Shown: positions 134 through 51,078 of the stretch, one piece after another
How the letters are laid out: every line of letters starts with the position of its first letter
How positions within the stretch are numbered: position 1 is the first letter of the stretch
Assembly (NCBI RefSeq): GCF_021310995.1
Contig: NZ_CP054150.1
Coordinates: 248,001 to 312,000 of the forward strand
Length of the DNA: 64,000 nt
Source: Agrobacterium vaccinii
GTDB lineage: Bacteria > Pseudomonadota > Alphaproteobacteria > Rhizobiales > Rhizobiaceae
Reading direction: 5' to 3'
Program-made: the position numbers and the translations under genes
Notes under the pieces: generated by a model
What the model saw: the letters and a program-made list of their open reading frames with translations, nothing else
The model's database searches: none
What the model was told of the DNA's origin: nothing

Positions 134-1131
134 GCCGAAGCCTCCTTGGTGATTTCGGTCCTGGCCCTGTCGCGCAGAATGATGCGGCCCTTTTTGGCTT
201 CGGCGCGGGCGTTGAACACCACGGCAAGCACGATGACGACGCCTGAAATTGCCATCTGCGCAAAGGGCGAAATGCCGATGACGGGCAGCGCATTCTTGAT
301 GACACCGAGAAACAGAGCCCCCAGCACCGCACCGGCAACCGAGCCGATGCCACCCGCAATCGAAATGCCGCCGATGACGTTTGCGGCGACGCTATCCAGT
401 TCGAAACCGGATGCGATATCGACATAGGCCACGGCGTAGCGCGACACCCAGAGGTAGCTCGCCAACCCCGCCAAAGCACCCGAAAGTACAAAGGCCAGAA
501 AGCGCGTGCGGCCGACATCGATGCCCGCATAGACCGCAGCGCCCGGATTGCCGCCCGAGGCATAGGCGGAACGCCCGAAGGAGGTGCGGGTTAGGACTAG
601 CCATGCGCCCGCAATGATGAGGACGGCGACCCAGGATAGAACAGGCATTCCAAAAATCGGCGTGCGTGGAATATTCAGGAACGTCGGCGACATCTGGTGT
701 GCGTTGATCCATGCGCCACCGGAGAGAACAAAGGCCATGCCACGATAGATGGTCAGCGTTCCCAGTGTGACCACGATGGAAGGCAGGCCCAGCCACCAGA
801 CAAGAATGCCGTTGATCGAGCCAAGAAGTGCGCCGATGACAACCGCCATGGCAATGAGGAAGGGCAGGGGTATCGAGGGAAAAGCGGCATTGGTCATCGC
901 CACGGCCATGCCGGTAAAGGCAAGGTTGGCGGCAACAGAGAGATCGATGGATTTCGTCAGGATCACCGCCATCTGGCCCAGCGCCAGAATGATGAGGATC
1001 GACGTGTCATTGAAGATATTGACGAGATTGGCCGGGCGCTCGAAACCGGGGGAACGCATGGAGAAGCCCGCGATCAAGGTGATGATGATGCCTGCCAGCA
1101 GCCATTCGCGATTTTTCAATAGTCTTTTCAT
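130..1131 (-). CDS. rhaP: L-rhamnose ABC transporter permease RhaP
   Basis: A 333 residue inner membrane protein of the ribose/rhamnose type permease family (BPD_transp_2). Many hydrophobic segments are visible from residue 12 onward, with the family-typical stretches IDLSV near residue 62, LPSIVVTLGT near 118 and the glycine-rich block NVIGGISIAGGIGS near 255. It forms the transmembrane channel for rhamnose with RhaQ and is powered by RhaT. It starts 13 bases after rhaT ends, with GAGAGGACC as ribosome binding site, and overlaps rhaQ by 4 bases. The substrate assignment is inferred from the adjacent rhaR, rhaS, rhaD and rhaI genes. Confidence 0.9.
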   Translation of the reverse strand: MKRLLKNREWLLAGIIITLIAGFSMRSPGFERPANLVNIFNDTSILIILALGQMAVILTKSIDLSVAANLAFTGMAVAMTNAAFPSIPLPFLIAMAVVIGALLGSINGILVWWLGLPSIVVTLGTLTIYRGMAFVLSGGAWINAHQMSPTFLNIPRTPIFGMPVLSWVAVLIIAGAWLVLTRTSFGRSAYASGGNPGAAVYAGIDVGRTRFLAFVLSGALAGLASYLWVSRYAVAYVDIASGFELDSVAANVIGGISIAGGIGSVAGAVLGALFLGVIKNALPVIGISPFAQMAISGVVIVLAVVFNARAEAKKGRIILRDRARTEITKEASA

Positions 1132-30442: not shown

Positions 30443-31627
30443 TTAGGCCGAGACCTGTGCCAGCGCTGCTGCGAAATCTTCCAACAGGTCGTCGGTGTCC
30501 TCGATGCCGCAGGACAGGCGCAACGTGCCGCCGGAAATACCGAGCTCAGCACGCGCCTCGTCCGTCAGGTTCTTGTGCGTTGTCGTGCCGGGATGTGTAA
30601 TCAGGCTCTTGGCATCGCCCAGATTGTTGGAAATCTTGACGACTTCAAGCGCGTTCTGCAGCTTGAACGCCGCCTCCTTGCCGCCCTTCAATTCGAAGCA
30701 GACCAGCGTCGAGCCGCCCGTCATCTGCTTGGCAATGATATCGGCCTGCGGATGGTCGGCACGGCCCGGGTAGATGACCTTGGCGACCTTGTTCTGCTCG
30801 GCGAGAAAATCTGCAATCTTGCCTGCATTCGCCGTCTGCTGGCGCACGCGCAGCGGCAGCGTCTCGATACCCTTCAACAGCGTCCATGCGTTGAAAGGCG
30901 AAAGGGCAGGGCCGGTGTGGCGGAAATAATCCTGAAGCTCTTCCTCGATCCATTTCTTGTCCGAGAGAACGACGCCACCCAGGCAACGGCCCTGGCCATC
31001 GATATGCTTGGTTGCGGAGTAGACGACGATATGCGCCCCCAACTCCAATGGCTTCTGGAAAAGCGGCGTGGCAAACACGTTGTCGACCACCACTTTCGCG
31101 TCGATCTGGTTGGCGAGCTTGGCCACGCCAGCAATATCGACCACTTCCAGCGTCGGGTTCGTCGGGCTTTCAAGGAAGAACAGCTGGGTGTTCGGCTGGA
31201 TCGCCTTTTCCCAATTGGCCAGATCACGACCATCGACCAGCGTGCACTCGATGCCGTATTTCGGCGCCAGCGTTTCAACAACCCAGCGGCAGGAGCCGAA
31301 CAGGGCGCGGGCAGCCACGATGTGATCGCCTGCCTTCAACTGGCACAAAATGGCGGCGCTGACGGCAGCCATGCCGGATGCCGTGGCGCGGGCATCTTCG
31401 GCACCCTCCAGCAGGCACATGCGCTTTTCAAACATGTCATTGGTGGGGCTGGCGTAGCGGGCGTAGATGAAGCCCTCGGTTTCGCCCTTGAAACGGGCTT
31501 CCGCCGCTTCCGAGCTGTCATAGACGAAGCCTTGGGTCAGATAGATTGCCTCAGAGGTCTCGCCATATTCGGACCGCAGCGTACCGCCGTGAACCAGTTG
31601 CGTTGCCGGGCGCCATTTCTTGCTCAT
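30443..31627 (-). CDS. metZ: O-succinylhomoserine sulfhydrylase MetZ
   Basis: A 394 residue Cys/Met metabolism PLP enzyme. The PLP lysine is in YSATKHIDGQGR near residue 207; family blocks YARYASPTNDMFE and LESPTNPTLEVVDI are clear. It makes homocysteine from activated homoserine and sulfide in methionine synthesis. Choice of MetZ over cystathionine gamma-synthase rests on sequence style and the riboswitch. AAGGTGA precedes the ATG. A SAM-II riboswitch with an intrinsic terminator lies immediately upstream, so expression should fall when S-adenosylmethionine is plentiful. Confidence 0.92.
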   Translation of the reverse strand: MSKKWRPATQLVHGGTLRSEYGETSEAIYLTQGFVYDSSEAAEARFKGETEGFIYARYASPTNDMFEKRMCLLEGAEDARATASGMAAVSAAILCQLKAGDHIVAARALFGSCRWVVETLAPKYGIECTLVDGRDLANWEKAIQPNTQLFFLESPTNPTLEVVDIAGVAKLANQIDAKVVVDNVFATPLFQKPLELGAHIVVYSATKHIDGQGRCLGGVVLSDKKWIEEELQDYFRHTGPALSPFNAWTLLKGIETLPLRVRQQTANAGKIADFLAEQNKVAKVIYPGRADHPQADIIAKQMTGGSTLVCFELKGGKEAAFKLQNALEVVKISNNLGDAKSLITHPGTTTHKNLTDEARAELGISGGTLRLSCGIEDTDDLLEDFAAALAQVSA

Positions 31628-32971: not shown

Positions 32972-33045
32972 GCGGGTGTAGCTCAATGGTAGAGCAGCAG
33001 CTTCCCAAGCTGAATACGAGGGTTCGATTCCCTTCACCCGCTCCA
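32972..33045 (+). tRNA. tRNA-Gly (anticodon CCC)
   Basis: A complete 74 base tRNA with encoded CCA. Acceptor stem GCGGGTG pairs with CACCCGC, the D arm is GCTCAATGGTAGAGC, the anticodon loop TTCCCAA gives CCC (reads GGG, glycine), and the T loop is TTCGATTC. An integrase remnant begins 32 bases after its end, so the 3' part of this gene was probably an attachment site. Confidence 0.95.
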
Positions 33046-47760: not shown

Positions 47761-48527
47761 TGCATCCGCTTGCCAAGAATGAAGGACAAAACCGAAACGT
47801 GCTGAGCCGACTTGCCCTGAGCGACAAATTTGCCACTGGCTTCGAATGCCTCGGCTCGGAAACCGCCATCAACGGCGTCGCTGGCTGGTGCGATCCGCTG
47901 GGCGGGCTCTATCTGCCCGACCTGTCGCTGCTGGTCGTCTCGGATTTGCACCTGGAAAAGGGTGCCGCCTTTGCCCGTCGCGGTCGCTTGCTGCCGCCCT
48001 ACGACACCATCGCCACCCTCAAAATCCTGTCCTCGTTGATCACACGCTACGACCCGAAGATCGTCGTCAGCCTCGGCGATAATTTCCACGATCGCATCGG
48101 CTCGCATCATCTGCCGCTGCCTCTGCGGGATCTCATCAAGGAAATGGCCCGGGGCCGCGAATGGATCTGGATCAACGGCAATCACGATCCCGATGGCACG
48201 GTGGATTTGCCGGGCTCATCGTCCGATGAAATGTTCTACGGCAACCTCGTTTTCCGGCACGAGCCGAAACCGGGCGCATCATCAGGCGAAATCGCCGGCC
48301 ACCTCCACCCCGCCGCCACCGTCCGCCGCCGCGATAAATCGGTGCGCCGCCCCTGCTTCGCCACTGACGGAACCCGCATGCTGATGCCAGCCTTCGGCGT
48401 GCTCAGCGGCGGGCTTGATCTGCGCCACAAGGCGATGAAGGGCCTATTTGACCATTCGGCGCTGGTTGCGCATCTGCTGGGGCGGGACCGGATTTATTCG
48501 GTTCGGTTCGGGAACTTGCTGGGGTGA
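47757..48527 (+). CDS. pdeM: Ligase-associated DNA damage response endonuclease PdeM
   Basis: A 256 residue calcineurin-like phosphoesterase. Metal-ligand motifs in order are SDLHLEKG, SLGDNFHD, INGNHDPD and the late histidines of EIAGHLHPAA. Proteins of this family accompany the Lhr-like helicase and are predicted to act as a nuclease in repair. The first ATG overlaps the helicase stop (ATGATG), so coupled translation is likely. The usual ligase (ligD-like) and exonuclease partners do not appear in this window. Confidence 0.92.
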   Translation: MMHPLAKNEGQNRNVLSRLALSDKFATGFECLGSETAINGVAGWCDPLGGLYLPDLSLLVVSDLHLEKGAAFARRGRLLPPYDTIATLKILSSLITRYDPKIVVSLGDNFHDRIGSHHLPLPLRDLIKEMARGREWIWINGNHDPDGTVDLPGSSSDEMFYGNLVFRHEPKPGASSGEIAGHLHPAATVRRRDKSVRRPCFATDGTRMLMPAFGVLSGGLDLRHKAMKGLFDHSALVAHLLGRDRIYSVRFGNLLG

Positions 48528-48566
48528 GGGGTGTGGGCGGTTGGCCGCAGAGTACGCCGCTCACCC

Positions 48567-48765
48567 CCCTCTGTCCTGCCGGACATCTCCCCCTCAAGGG
48601 GGGAGATCGGCAAGAGGCGCGATCACCGCTCTAATTACAGCCGTTAGACGGTTGGTCGGCAATACACGTCGTACCCAGTGCAGCAGCGCAACGCTCAAGA
48701 TGGTCGAGCGCCATCCACGAGTCGATCTCCCCACCTGAGGGGGAGATGCCCGGCAGGGCAGAGGG
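48567..48765. repeat. Long inverted repeat after pdeM
   Basis: Two 43 base arms, 48567-48609 and 48723-48765, are complementary at 39 of 43 positions, with 113 bases between. Each arm also has a small palindrome around CTCCCCCTCA. The form is that of rhizobial palindromic repeats. The sequence in the loop and up to 48887 has no gene. Confidence 0.85.
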
Positions 48766-48887
48766 AGGTAAACCCCACTCTCTGACCTCACGATGCACTC
48801 CCCAAAACACCTCAAACAAAAATACTTCCAATCTAAATCAACAACTTAAAATAAATCCCGCAAAAAACACCAAAATCCCCCCCGCAA

Positions 48888-49690
48888 CTTTCTCAATGAC
48901 GCGCGAATCACCCGCACAATTGCCCCGTTCCGCCCTCGGATACACCGCAAGGCGTTGCGGCGAGGCGGGACCGGCGCTGGGGTTGAGAGGGTGACGCAAA
49001 CCTTTCAACCTCGGGGTCGAGCAGCGATCTCCCCGGTGGGACGGGAGAAAGGCGGCGGCGGTTTCGGACCGGCTGTCGCAGCCTTTCCAATGTCCGGACC
49101 GGCCCGGCATGTCTGCGCCCCAAAACACCGTTTCGGGTTTTGTGGCGGGTCATGACGGTCCGGTTCGCCAGCCACCGGGTGTACCGACAGCTCATTGGCA
49201 CCGGGTCGAACGCGACCGCAGGGGCTTGAAGCGAAAGTCAGGCGGTACACAGGAACACGCTGCATCTGCCCCGCACTGTCGATGAGACAGCGCGGACGGA
49301 CCGCAAGGGACGCACAAGCCATGGATGGCGAGTGTGGCTCTTGCGGAGAACGGATCGATGGCTGCGGGCGCTTCGTCAGAATGAACGCTCGCATCCTCGA
49401 AGGCAGATGTGGCCGAACTGGCAGGCGACGGCTTTGGCAACAAAGCCGCCGTCACCCGGGTGGGTAAGGGCCGGACCTTGGAAATGTCCGACCGTTCCAA
49501 CGGCAAGGCCCCCTTGCCCTCCGGGATATGCCAGCCGTGGCAAGAGGATCGCTGTTTGGCCAAAAGAGCTGAACGGGGCGCTGCGAGGTGCCATTCTTTA
49601 GACTACCCAACGAGGCAACTTACAGCGCCCCGTCCGAAATACCATGGCCGCGAATGGCTGTGGACACTGATTGAAGGTCAAGCCACGGGC
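48888..49690. ncRNA. Candidate large structured non-coding RNA locus A
   Basis: An 800 base stretch without a convincing gene but dense in exact stems: CCGCAA/TTGCGG (48945 and 48955); 48981-48990 with 49001-49010 (9 of 10); CAAAAC/GTTTTG (49121 and 49137); GTGTACCG/CGGTACAC (49179 and 49243); CTGTC/GACAG (49276 and 49286); GGCTTTG, loop GCAA, CAAAGCC (49430-49447); GGGGCGCTG/CAGCGCCCC (49575 and 49623). Several stems nest. Its first 50 bases resemble the start of locus B at 63640. Strand is undecided. No known RNA class recognised; tmRNA and RNase P RNA landmarks are absent. Confidence 0.35.
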
Positions 49691-49822
49691 AGATGCTGCC
49701 GCGTGAACGGCGAAGCTTGTTTGAGCGGTGGCCGGGGTTTTTGATAGCGATGGATTGGTGACGTTTAGGCCGCTGGTTGCCGGTGCAAGCTGCGTTCGCT
49801 GGGCCGCAGGCAGCAACGTAGC

Positions 49823-49941
49823 AACCCTCATCCTGAGGTGCCCCGCAGGGGCCTCGAAGGACGGGGGTTGCGGGCTTGAGGCAGAGTATGCGGCGGATGC
49901 TTCGAGGCTTTGCCCTTCGGCCAAAGCACCTCAGCATGAGG
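49823..49941. repeat. Palindromic repeat, copy 1
   Basis: Bounded by CCTCATCCTGAGGTG (49826-49840) and CACCTCAGCATGAGG (49927-49941), inverted with one mismatch. The interior contains GCCCCGCAGGGGCC and TTCGAGGCTTTGCCC. A second copy lies at 50090-50230 in the same orientation. Confidence 0.85.
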
Positions 49942-50089
49942 GCAGTGGGTGAGGTTGCCCTCTCCAATACCGGACCAACGCGGAATGCGACCATGTAGGA
50001 GGAATGCTTGGCGATGATGCAGGCCGCAGGCCGCAACCCTCACCACCATGAGAGCCGAACGAGGTGCCACGCAAAGGGCACGACAGAGC

Positions 50090-50230
50090 AACCCTCATCC
50101 ATCATCCTGAGCTTGTCGAAGGAGAGGTGCCCCGCAGGGGCCTCGAAGGACGAGGGTTGCGGGCTTAGTTACAGAATGCGGCGGATGCTTCGAGGCTTTG
50201 CCCTTCGGTCAAAGCACCTCAGCATGAGGG
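50090..50230. repeat. Palindromic repeat, copy 2
   Basis: Same family and orientation as 49823-49941: the block around GAGGTGCCCCGCAGGGGCCT is identical, as is the end around TTCGAGGCTTTGCCCTTCGG. The left edge differs by an inserted stretch (GAGCTTGTCGAAGGA), a known variant style of these elements. It ends 26 bases before the TIGR02186 gene. Confidence 0.85.
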
Positions 50231-50256
50231 CGGAGTACGCCGCTAGCCCCTCAATC

Positions 50257-51078
50257 CTAATCCCGCCGGAACAAAATACTCGCACCCCAACCCGTCACCA
50301 CCGCCAGCAACACACACAAAAAGCCATAAACCACCGGCGTCTGGTGTGCCGCATCCGTTATCGCCTGCTCCATGCCCGTTTTCACCACGCGCAGCCGCAA
50401 TTCCTTCTGCGCAATCGGCAGGCCGCTCTTGAACAGATAGGCGCGGGCCGTGTGGACGCCGTTGGGCACGTTGGCGGGCAGGCGCAGCGTTGCCCAGAAG
50501 AGGCCGGTGCGCTCCAGACGAACACCGGTCGTGTCGTTGCGGTAGATGCCGCTCGATAGTTTCAGGCGGCGATAGGCATCCTGGAAGTCGTAGACATTGT
50601 CAGGCACGCCGGAAAAGACGGCGCTACGCAGTGGCAGGTGGTCCACGCCCAGGCCCATGGCCTTCAGCGTACCCGCCGTTGCTATGGTGTCGATGCTGCG
50701 CGTGCTGGCCATGGAATAGGATTCCGGCAGCGGCGCAAAGGTGATCGCGCTGGTGTTGATCCAGATACCCGCTACCCGGCTTTTTTTGCGCACGGTGGAG
50801 TAATCGTTGGGGCCTTCCAGCGTCACGACGATGTCGTATTGGCCGATGGCCAGCAGCAACTGGTCGGCATTGTTCAGCGCGCCGAACATGGTGAAATCCG
50901 CGCCGCGAAAATCTGACGCGATGGAGATTTCGGTGGTCGATGCGCCGATCTCGATGTTTTCCTGCAAGGTGCGGGTCTGCCCGCGCGCATCCGGCAAAAT
51001 CGCAAGCGGTGGCGTTTGCGCCTGGGCAGCGCTACAGCACAGGCCGAAGATCGCAGCGATGAGGGTGCCACGGATCAA
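50257..51078 (-). CDS. TIGR02186 family exported membrane protein
   Basis: A 273 residue protein with a signal peptide (MIRGTLIAAIFGLCCSAAQA), a periplasmic domain of about 210 residues with beta pattern (GASTTEISIASDFRGADFTM, VVTLEGPNDYSTVRKKSRVA), and a C-terminal membrane helix (VYGFLCVLLAVVTGWGASIL) with a basic end. It matches the alphaproteobacterial family TIGR02186, normally found beside a TauE-type permease as here. Its start overlaps the permease stop by 4 bases. It may be a periplasmic partner of the exporter; direct function is unknown. Confidence 0.85.
   Translation of the reverse strand: MIRGTLIAAIFGLCCSAAQAQTPPLAILPDARGQTRTLQENIEIGASTTEISIASDFRGADFTMFGALNNADQLLLAIGQYDIVVTLEGPNDYSTVRKKSRVAGIWINTSAITFAPLPESYSMASTRSIDTIATAGTLKAMGLGVDHLPLRSAVFSGVPDNVYDFQDAYRRLKLSSGIYRNDTTGVRLERTGLFWATLRLPANVPNGVHTARAYLFKSGLPIAQKELRLRVVKTGMEQAITDAAHQTPVVYGFLCVLLAVVTGWGASILFRRD

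Follow-up and report, generated by a model that had tools for sequence, protein, structure and literature searches.

A probable new family of large structured RNAs in intergenic regions of Rhizobiaceae

What occupies the 1.7 kb gap between pdeM (TIGR04123) and a TIGR02186 gene in the genome of Agrobacterium vaccinii? The gap lies in a stretch of 64,000 nucleotides (NCBI RefSeq assembly GCF_021310995.1, contig NZ_CP054150.1, positions 248,001 to 312,000 of the forward strand), which is referred to below as the window and to which all coordinates apply unless a locus or replicon is named. A sequence-only reading had marked a stem-rich stretch at 48888-49690 and offered two explanations, an undescribed large RNA and a decayed mobile element with structured ends. 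The gap was found to house a structured element, and the stretch stands with slightly shifted limits: the block kept among copies extends from ∼48815 to 49750, and the predicted RNA from 48926 to 49742 on the + strand (∼817 nt). This is very likely a real, new RNA family, and the locus is probably a free-standing gene for a ∼820 nt RNA of that family, acting in trans as the core of a ribonucleoprotein (RNP) or as an RNA-only assembly.

The first evidence comes from the fold. Stems had been claimed to be packed more densely than chance would give, and the minimum free energy of 48918-49745 (+ strand) is −430.1 kcal/mol compared with −357.6 ± 7.1 for 20 dinucleotide shuffles (z −10.25), none of which was as low. 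Copies from other loci were aligned, 33 in all, with partial copies (e.g. L034, L048, L057 and L062) excluded, as were the copies of genome G033, because their internal duplicated pieces of ∼70-145 bases look like draft-assembly joins. RNAalifold with ribosum scoring gave these 33 copies a value of −442 on the + strand and −399 on the − strand.

Covariation was assessed in alignment A3, which consists of 32 Agrobacterium rows (G019b was excluded from A1, A3 and the tree), using a structure of 215 pairs in 33 helices, pre-filtered to pairs formed in at least 75% of lettered rows. Standard pairs occupy 96.5% of cells, against 92.2% after shuffling, and 346 cells carry double changes, against 119.5 ± 11.1 in shuffles (0 of 500) and 41-87 when the pairing was slid. 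Double changes are found in 51 pairs (39.6 shuffled), and the covariation score is 0.208 (0.134 shuffled). The check that had been proposed, covariation among aligned homologues, was thus run, and compensatory changes are strong in the 32 copies. Four helices (1, 12, 20 and 23) are weaker, with 78-89% of cells paired. Likewise, the 5′ module aligned from 39 copies of many genera has 191 double-change cells, compared with 73.5 ± 6.1 in shuffles (0 of 500) and 31-58 when slid. The parts of the predicted RNA gene, all on the + strand, are as follows.

48815-48925, conserved upstream region, a putative promoter; similarity between copies starts near 48815.
48915-48920, CACAAT, a putative −10-like hexamer directly upstream of the 5′ stem.
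48926-49742, large structured RNA of ∼817 nt, its ends predicted from the −10-like motif and a T run.
48924-48974, 5′ stem with nested hairpin 48945-48960 and motif CGGATACACC; 98.9% and 100% of cells paired (helices 2 and 3).
48977-49014, highly covarying hairpin of 14-15 bp; double changes in 9 of 14 pairs (helix 5).
49015-49561, long-range helix 49015-49030 / 49546-49561 (helices 6 and 7), closing a central multi-branch region.
49047-49087, stacked stems with strong covariation; double changes in 10 of 16 pairs (helices 10 and 11).
49073-49175, peripheral module 1, missing or mostly missing in L043, L044, L045, L055, L056 and L061.
49180-49249, domain containing GCGAAAGTCAGGCGGTACACAGG; a short hairpin stands in its place in other genera.
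49276-49402, peripheral module 2, missing in L035, L046, L047, L058, L059 and L060 and partly in L050.
49424-49453, GCAA-tetraloop hairpin (loop 49437-49440); double changes in 4 of 4 pairs, 84.8% of cells paired (helix 23).
49570-49636, most conserved hairpin, GGGGCGCTG..AGGTGCCA..ACGAGGCA..CAGCGCCCC; 14 of 18 pairs invariant, 99.1% paired.
49684-49705, 3′ hairpin CACGGGCAG..CTGCCGCGTG; 99.3% paired, 8 of 9 pairs invariant.
49708-49742, short CGGC/GCCG pairing followed by TTTTT (49738-49742), a possible terminator.

The long-range helix is paired in 95.6% and 96.8% of cells with double changes in 4 of 12 pairs, and across genera 4 of 6 pairs of the inner 5′ stem covary. The GCAA tetraloop on a 7 bp stem reported earlier is present at 49430-49447 (GGCTTTG-GCAA-CAAAGCC). 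The hairpin at 49570-49636 forms the core of model R2, which represents the 3′ module, and of the telomere-side relatives described below. Copies of other genera (n = 29) are more compact, their 5′ and 3′ modules together with what lies between spanning 289-586 nt. The domain at 49181-49300 was also detected alone, 77% identical, in A. fabrum pAtN33_94 (30463-30580; L279:4001-4118), where it is intergenic between SIR2/AAA genes, with an HsdR-like gene further on, in a defence-like neighbourhood.

A protein-coding gene was considered and rejected. No reading frame is conserved among the 32 copies, in agreement with the earlier view that the stretch holds no convincing coding sequence: whichever of the six frames is read, stop-free runs in one copy or more extend no further than 52-71 codons. 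Single copies have stop-free runs of up to 278 codons. Gap lengths are mostly not multiples of three (remainder 1, 629; remainder 2, 267; remainder 0, 24).

Palindromic repeats sit around the conserved block and not inside it.

48548-48784, no strand, flanking palindromic repeat pair with 62 nt arms, 81% complementary, outside the RNA.
49821-50231, no strand, flanking REP-like palindromic repeats, two units ∼289 bases apart, outside the RNA.

These are of the GATCTCCCC..GGGGAGAT and CCTCATCCTGAGGTGCCCC types, and many of the genomes searched contain short matches to them. REP and RIME are names for intergenic palindromes of rhizobia, and the element could itself be imagined as a chromosomal palindrome of this type, for example a protein-binding or nucleoid element, structured as DNA and not as RNA. 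It resembles them in being multicopy, intergenic and palindromic, the window copy is flanked by such repeats on both sides, and its RNA nature is deduced from sequence. However, REP and RIME elements are short repeats, whereas the element in the window spans 0.8 kb and has a multi-branch fold that covaries. G-U is common where pairs vary, one strand gives the stronger consensus fold, and the GNRA loop, the long-range multi-branch closure and an upstream motif on one side only all fit an RNA. We give the DNA explanation almost no weight.

Signals at both ends are consistent with an RNA gene. A −10-like hexamer (TACAAT, CATACT or CACAAT) precedes the 5′ stem in most of the 40 anchored copies, with the final T in 35 and the second A in 30; the 5′ stem served as anchor in 40 of the 41 copies tested, with an offset of some bases in a few. 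At the other end, the T run at 49738-49742, 3′ of the 3′ hairpin, is nearly invariant (at least 90% of 32 copies). Together these motifs suggest transcription of the + strand from the RNA's own upstream motif, ending at the T run.

Four near-full-length copies, 91-100% identical and on both strands, plus one 41-base match, were found in a DNA search of the host genome. Matches occur in 12 of 61 genomes, host included, all of them Agrobacterium. Model R2 detected the 3′ module in 58 of 394 Rhizobiaceae genomes (20 of 109 genera), and model R3 the 5′ module in 63 of 394 (18 of 109 genera); at most 7 candidates per genome were scored with R2 and at most 10 with R3, and the stricter filters of these large runs lost weak matches. 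An order-wide search, also under the stricter filters, matched 5 of 397 genomes, all Rhizobiaceae. A pattern scan of genome contigs gave at least 120 stretches; the 80 listed belong to Rhizobiaceae by genus name or to unnamed Rhizobiales, except for one metagenome-assembled genome (MAG) labelled Arenimonas. Apart from this MAG, the family has so far been found only in Rhizobiaceae genomes, many of which carry several copies. The MAG contig (L213, JAIBEK010000015.1) matches R2 and not model R1, and is perhaps misplaced. Among plasmid records 16 of 72,556 have matches, none covering 80% of the query; two viral contigs (L277 and L278, IMG/VR) have pattern matches, both with an R2 match and no R1 match; and blastn found nothing in 50,697 phage records, a DNA-only search of limited reach.

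The genomic positions of the copies bear on whether the element moves. A flanking gene on the same side and strand is shared with at least one other locus by 43 of 58 loci, often on one flank only and in a few cases via small open reading frames (ORFs) or repeats; the remaining 15 are partnerless. Site A, the pdeM/TIGR02186 gap of the window, is occupied in G027 (both flanks shared) and G019 (one flank), and a site on the dapF side is common to G002, G027, G009 and G033, and to G261 of another genus. Site A is empty in G009, G010 and G001, where 13-19 bases separate the aligned genes. The order acnA-RNA-dapF occurs in G261; acnA and dapF lie close together without the RNA in G011, G021 and G001 (∼160-180 bases) and in G010 (∼335 bases), and G000, G002 and G009 have dapF-side RNA with a distant acnA, a distribution that either ancestral or repeated insertion at dapF could explain. 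Site A is also found without a BLAST match to the RNA at 85 bases (G013), 308 bases (G022), 636-705 bases (eleven genomes) and 1366-1384 bases (G016, G020 and G011); in these last two groups (L130, L132, L142, L134 and others) the gap contains other sequence.

These arrangements can be set against a selfish, non-autonomous mobile element, whose structured RNA would serve its own spread and which would be moved in trans by an enzyme encoded elsewhere. The dispersal over both strands, including the four copies of the host, the empty site A, the short acnA-dapF spacings, the palindromes around the window copy and the IS110 transposases beside 2 of 58 copies all agree with it. The sites common to several species, on the dapF side even to another genus, do not, and conservation covers the internal structure and not the ends alone. 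Among 19 loci compared, no widely recurring neighbour gene was found; what they share is an IS110 gene (2 loci), dapF with an adjoining radical-SAM gene (2 loci) and some small ORFs. Neither terminal repeats nor target duplications have come to light, though no systematic search for them was made. We regard such an element as unlikely. The decayed mobile element of the sequence-only reading has also lost ground, because the copies have no transposase or other gene as a regular neighbour and their structure shows maintenance, not decay.

Identical IS110-family transposases (L108:3680-4750 and L109:6106-7173) adjoin two of the four host copies. A guide or bridge RNA of IS110 was rejected, the recombinase gene lying beside only 2 of 58 copies by tblastn and in differing relative orientation. 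A 356 aa ORF upstream of dapF-side copies was likewise considered as IS110 and rejected; it is a different protein, MBL-fold-like by eye. Related ORFs of 140-181 aa with CRR..C motifs lie downstream of the RNA in L091, L093 and L112 from three genera, possibly an orthologous site.

Copies of one genome resemble each other. Mean identity is 86.7% for 49 pairs within a genome, 76.2% for 29 pairs that occupy one site in two genomes and 74.0% for the remaining 418. On the tree, genome labels must change 11 times over 32 rows (the minimum for 10 genomes being 9) and site labels 16 times over 23 rows (the minimum for 7 sites being 6), counts that have no shuffle comparison behind them. Since genome-mates are more alike than same-site copies of other genomes, the pattern appears to fit gene conversion among stably placed copies (concerted evolution). 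Despite this likeness, G002, G027 and G009 each hold two or three subtypes.

A leader or riboswitch-like element acting in cis on adjoining genes would be expected to keep its neighbours, and in 8 of 53 loci a same-strand ORF does start no more than 150 bases downstream, with a small conserved ORF following each of the five telomere-side members examined. However, 27 of 53 downstream ORFs share the strand of the RNA (5 of the 58 loci were excluded at contig edges, and ORF calling was crude), which is a random orientation, neighbours mostly differ between loci, and the TIGR02186 gene downstream of the window RNA is on the opposite strand. A cis role is very improbable, and the random orientation argues for action in trans.

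The trans-acting RNA gene is preferred, as copies are free-standing and orientation-free, and size and complexity are like those of GOLLD, ROOL and OLE. Once made, the RNA would fold independently and act as the RNA core of an RNP or as an RNA-only assembly, possibly oligomeric (homo-oligomeric RNA assembly is a mark of GOLLD, ROOL and OLE), with a working core of the 5′ stem, the long-range helix and the 49570-49636 hairpin, to which peripheral stems may be added or lost. Having several genes may serve to raise dosage, and the copies may be homogenised by gene conversion. Several observations weigh against this. Presence is patchy, with strong R2 matches in 12 of 39 Agrobacterium genomes, and the RNA would therefore be dispensable. 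Default RNAalifold gave 155 pairs, of which 29 have double changes, and covariation accounts for a small part of the score, −11.96 of −193.24. The shuffles do not preserve relatedness and the structures were derived from the rows on which they were tested; the count of pairs with a change on both sides in the 39 copies was matched by 11 of 500 shuffles, and that of further pair types in the 32 copies by 3 of 500. Further up, most non-Agrobacterium copies carry a TCCCCGC box; the window copy has TTTCTCAATGACG there. A scan for E. coli-type promoters found zero sites (0.2 in shuffles), and a terminator scan found two (1.5 in shuffles), with the T run at 49738-49742 not among them.

A divergent branch was found beside the ends of Agrobacterium linear chromosomes. 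R2 has matches in 23 of the 39 Agrobacterium genomes, the 12 noted above being strong (E < 1e-25) and 11 having telomere-side matches only. Each of the 26 weaker matches (L341-L366; E ∼4e-12 to 1.4e-6) is 86-532 bases away from a contig end and has its RNA strand directed outward. They include the host member (L110/L352, C2:1557367-1557509), one at each end of the 2.13 Mb replicon C2 of G025, and L344 (∼480-860, minus strand) at the end of G006:C2, putatively the linear chromosome of A. fabrum C58. Four still weaker matches (E 7e-5 to 4.5e-4) were at G033:C1:463058, G016:C27:326, G016:C23:79933 and G027:C20:545069; at least the first is internal, and the remaining weak rows are opposite-strand shadows. 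R3 was run without filters on the 20 of 26 loci that were aligned, and reached E < 0.01 just upstream of R2 in 7 (best 8.5e-6; C58 0.0067), which have a similar upstream motif in the alignment. It did not reach E < 0.01 in the other 13, including the ends of the host, G020, G011, G030, G033 and G019.

In contig G011:C26 the sequence continues through a palindrome with TCATGA at its centre, the hexamer that PMC3558466 reports for the TelA hairpin, and the C58 chromosome end terminates in ...AATATCA. The telomere link is firm in position and, where the 3′ hairpin is concerned, also in homology. A small basic ORF follows the RNA at 5 of 5 ends tested, with 39, 51 and 60 aa in G006, G018 and G023 and within an 89 aa ORF in G025 and G007. 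This ORF (MGLYEMYVLA.RADTAL.RRR...) comes after GGAAAGG or similar, at ∼369-488 on the minus strand of L344, with equivalents in L341, L345, L349 and L359. The Northern table of PMC3738593 holds no RNA entry at the C58 linear-chromosome ends. It is a rather doubtful suggestion that the divergent member at TelA hairpin telomeres is a telomere RNA that helps to form, replicate or protect hairpin ends, and that the dispersed copies share descent and a partner with it. If true, a noncoding RNA would be tied to bacterial telomeres, and the branch in any case raises the question of RNA at the ends of linear bacterial chromosomes.

The family was not recognised among known RNAs. Rfam 15 (4227 families) gave no match at E ≤ 1 in window positions 48000-50500, and none for the telomere-side member of C58. 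Group I and group II intron models are present in Rfam, and neither matched at E ≤ 1 in the same interval. As had been stated earlier, tRNA and tmRNA landmarks are also absent: ARAGORN found none at the locus, and the nearest tRNA within the window is at 32972-33045. The compact copy L123 has one sub-threshold glycine-riboswitch match (19.3 bits, cut-off 32; E 0.4). A known RNA was rejected on these searches, and a resemblance of GCGAAAGTCAGGCGGTACACAGG to RNase P, noticed by eye, found no tool support. The original suggestion of an undescribed large RNA is accordingly supported by covarying homologues, the lack of an Rfam match to the window and the lack of a conserved frame. In the open-licence literature searched, a part of all literature, no description of the family was recognised. 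Newness is claimed for the RNA family relative to Rfam 15 and that literature; the broader kind is the large structured bacterial RNAs. The Rhizobiales-1 candidate motif (Weinberg 2010, PMC2864571) is alike in host group by name only, compared by its table row and not by sequence; that row shows a '?' and lacks an Rfam accession.

Large structured RNAs are few in bacteria, and the sections of PMC12286853 on GOLLD, ROOL and OLE describe their functions as poorly understood and list all three as included in Rfam. GOLLD is the closest in outline, since the window RNA also has ∼800 nt with a conserved 3′ part and a less conserved remainder (GOLLD features as in those sections), but GOLLD is encoded by phages or prophages, often near tRNAs, whereas the window family is intergenic in Rhizobiaceae and without a phage blastn match. 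ROOL is likewise large and ornate and its function is unknown (same sections of PMC12286853), but it is phage-linked, unlike the window family, which has neither a phage nor an Rfam match. OLE is similar in being large (∼600 nt) with an intricate secondary structure, as described in the relevant part of PMC9723947, but occurs in Gram-positive extremophiles as a known RNP, whereas the window RNA has no Rfam match. As natural paralogues are numerous, forms range from compact to expanded and the laboratory strain C58 has a putative member, the family found here would be a tractable addition to this kind.
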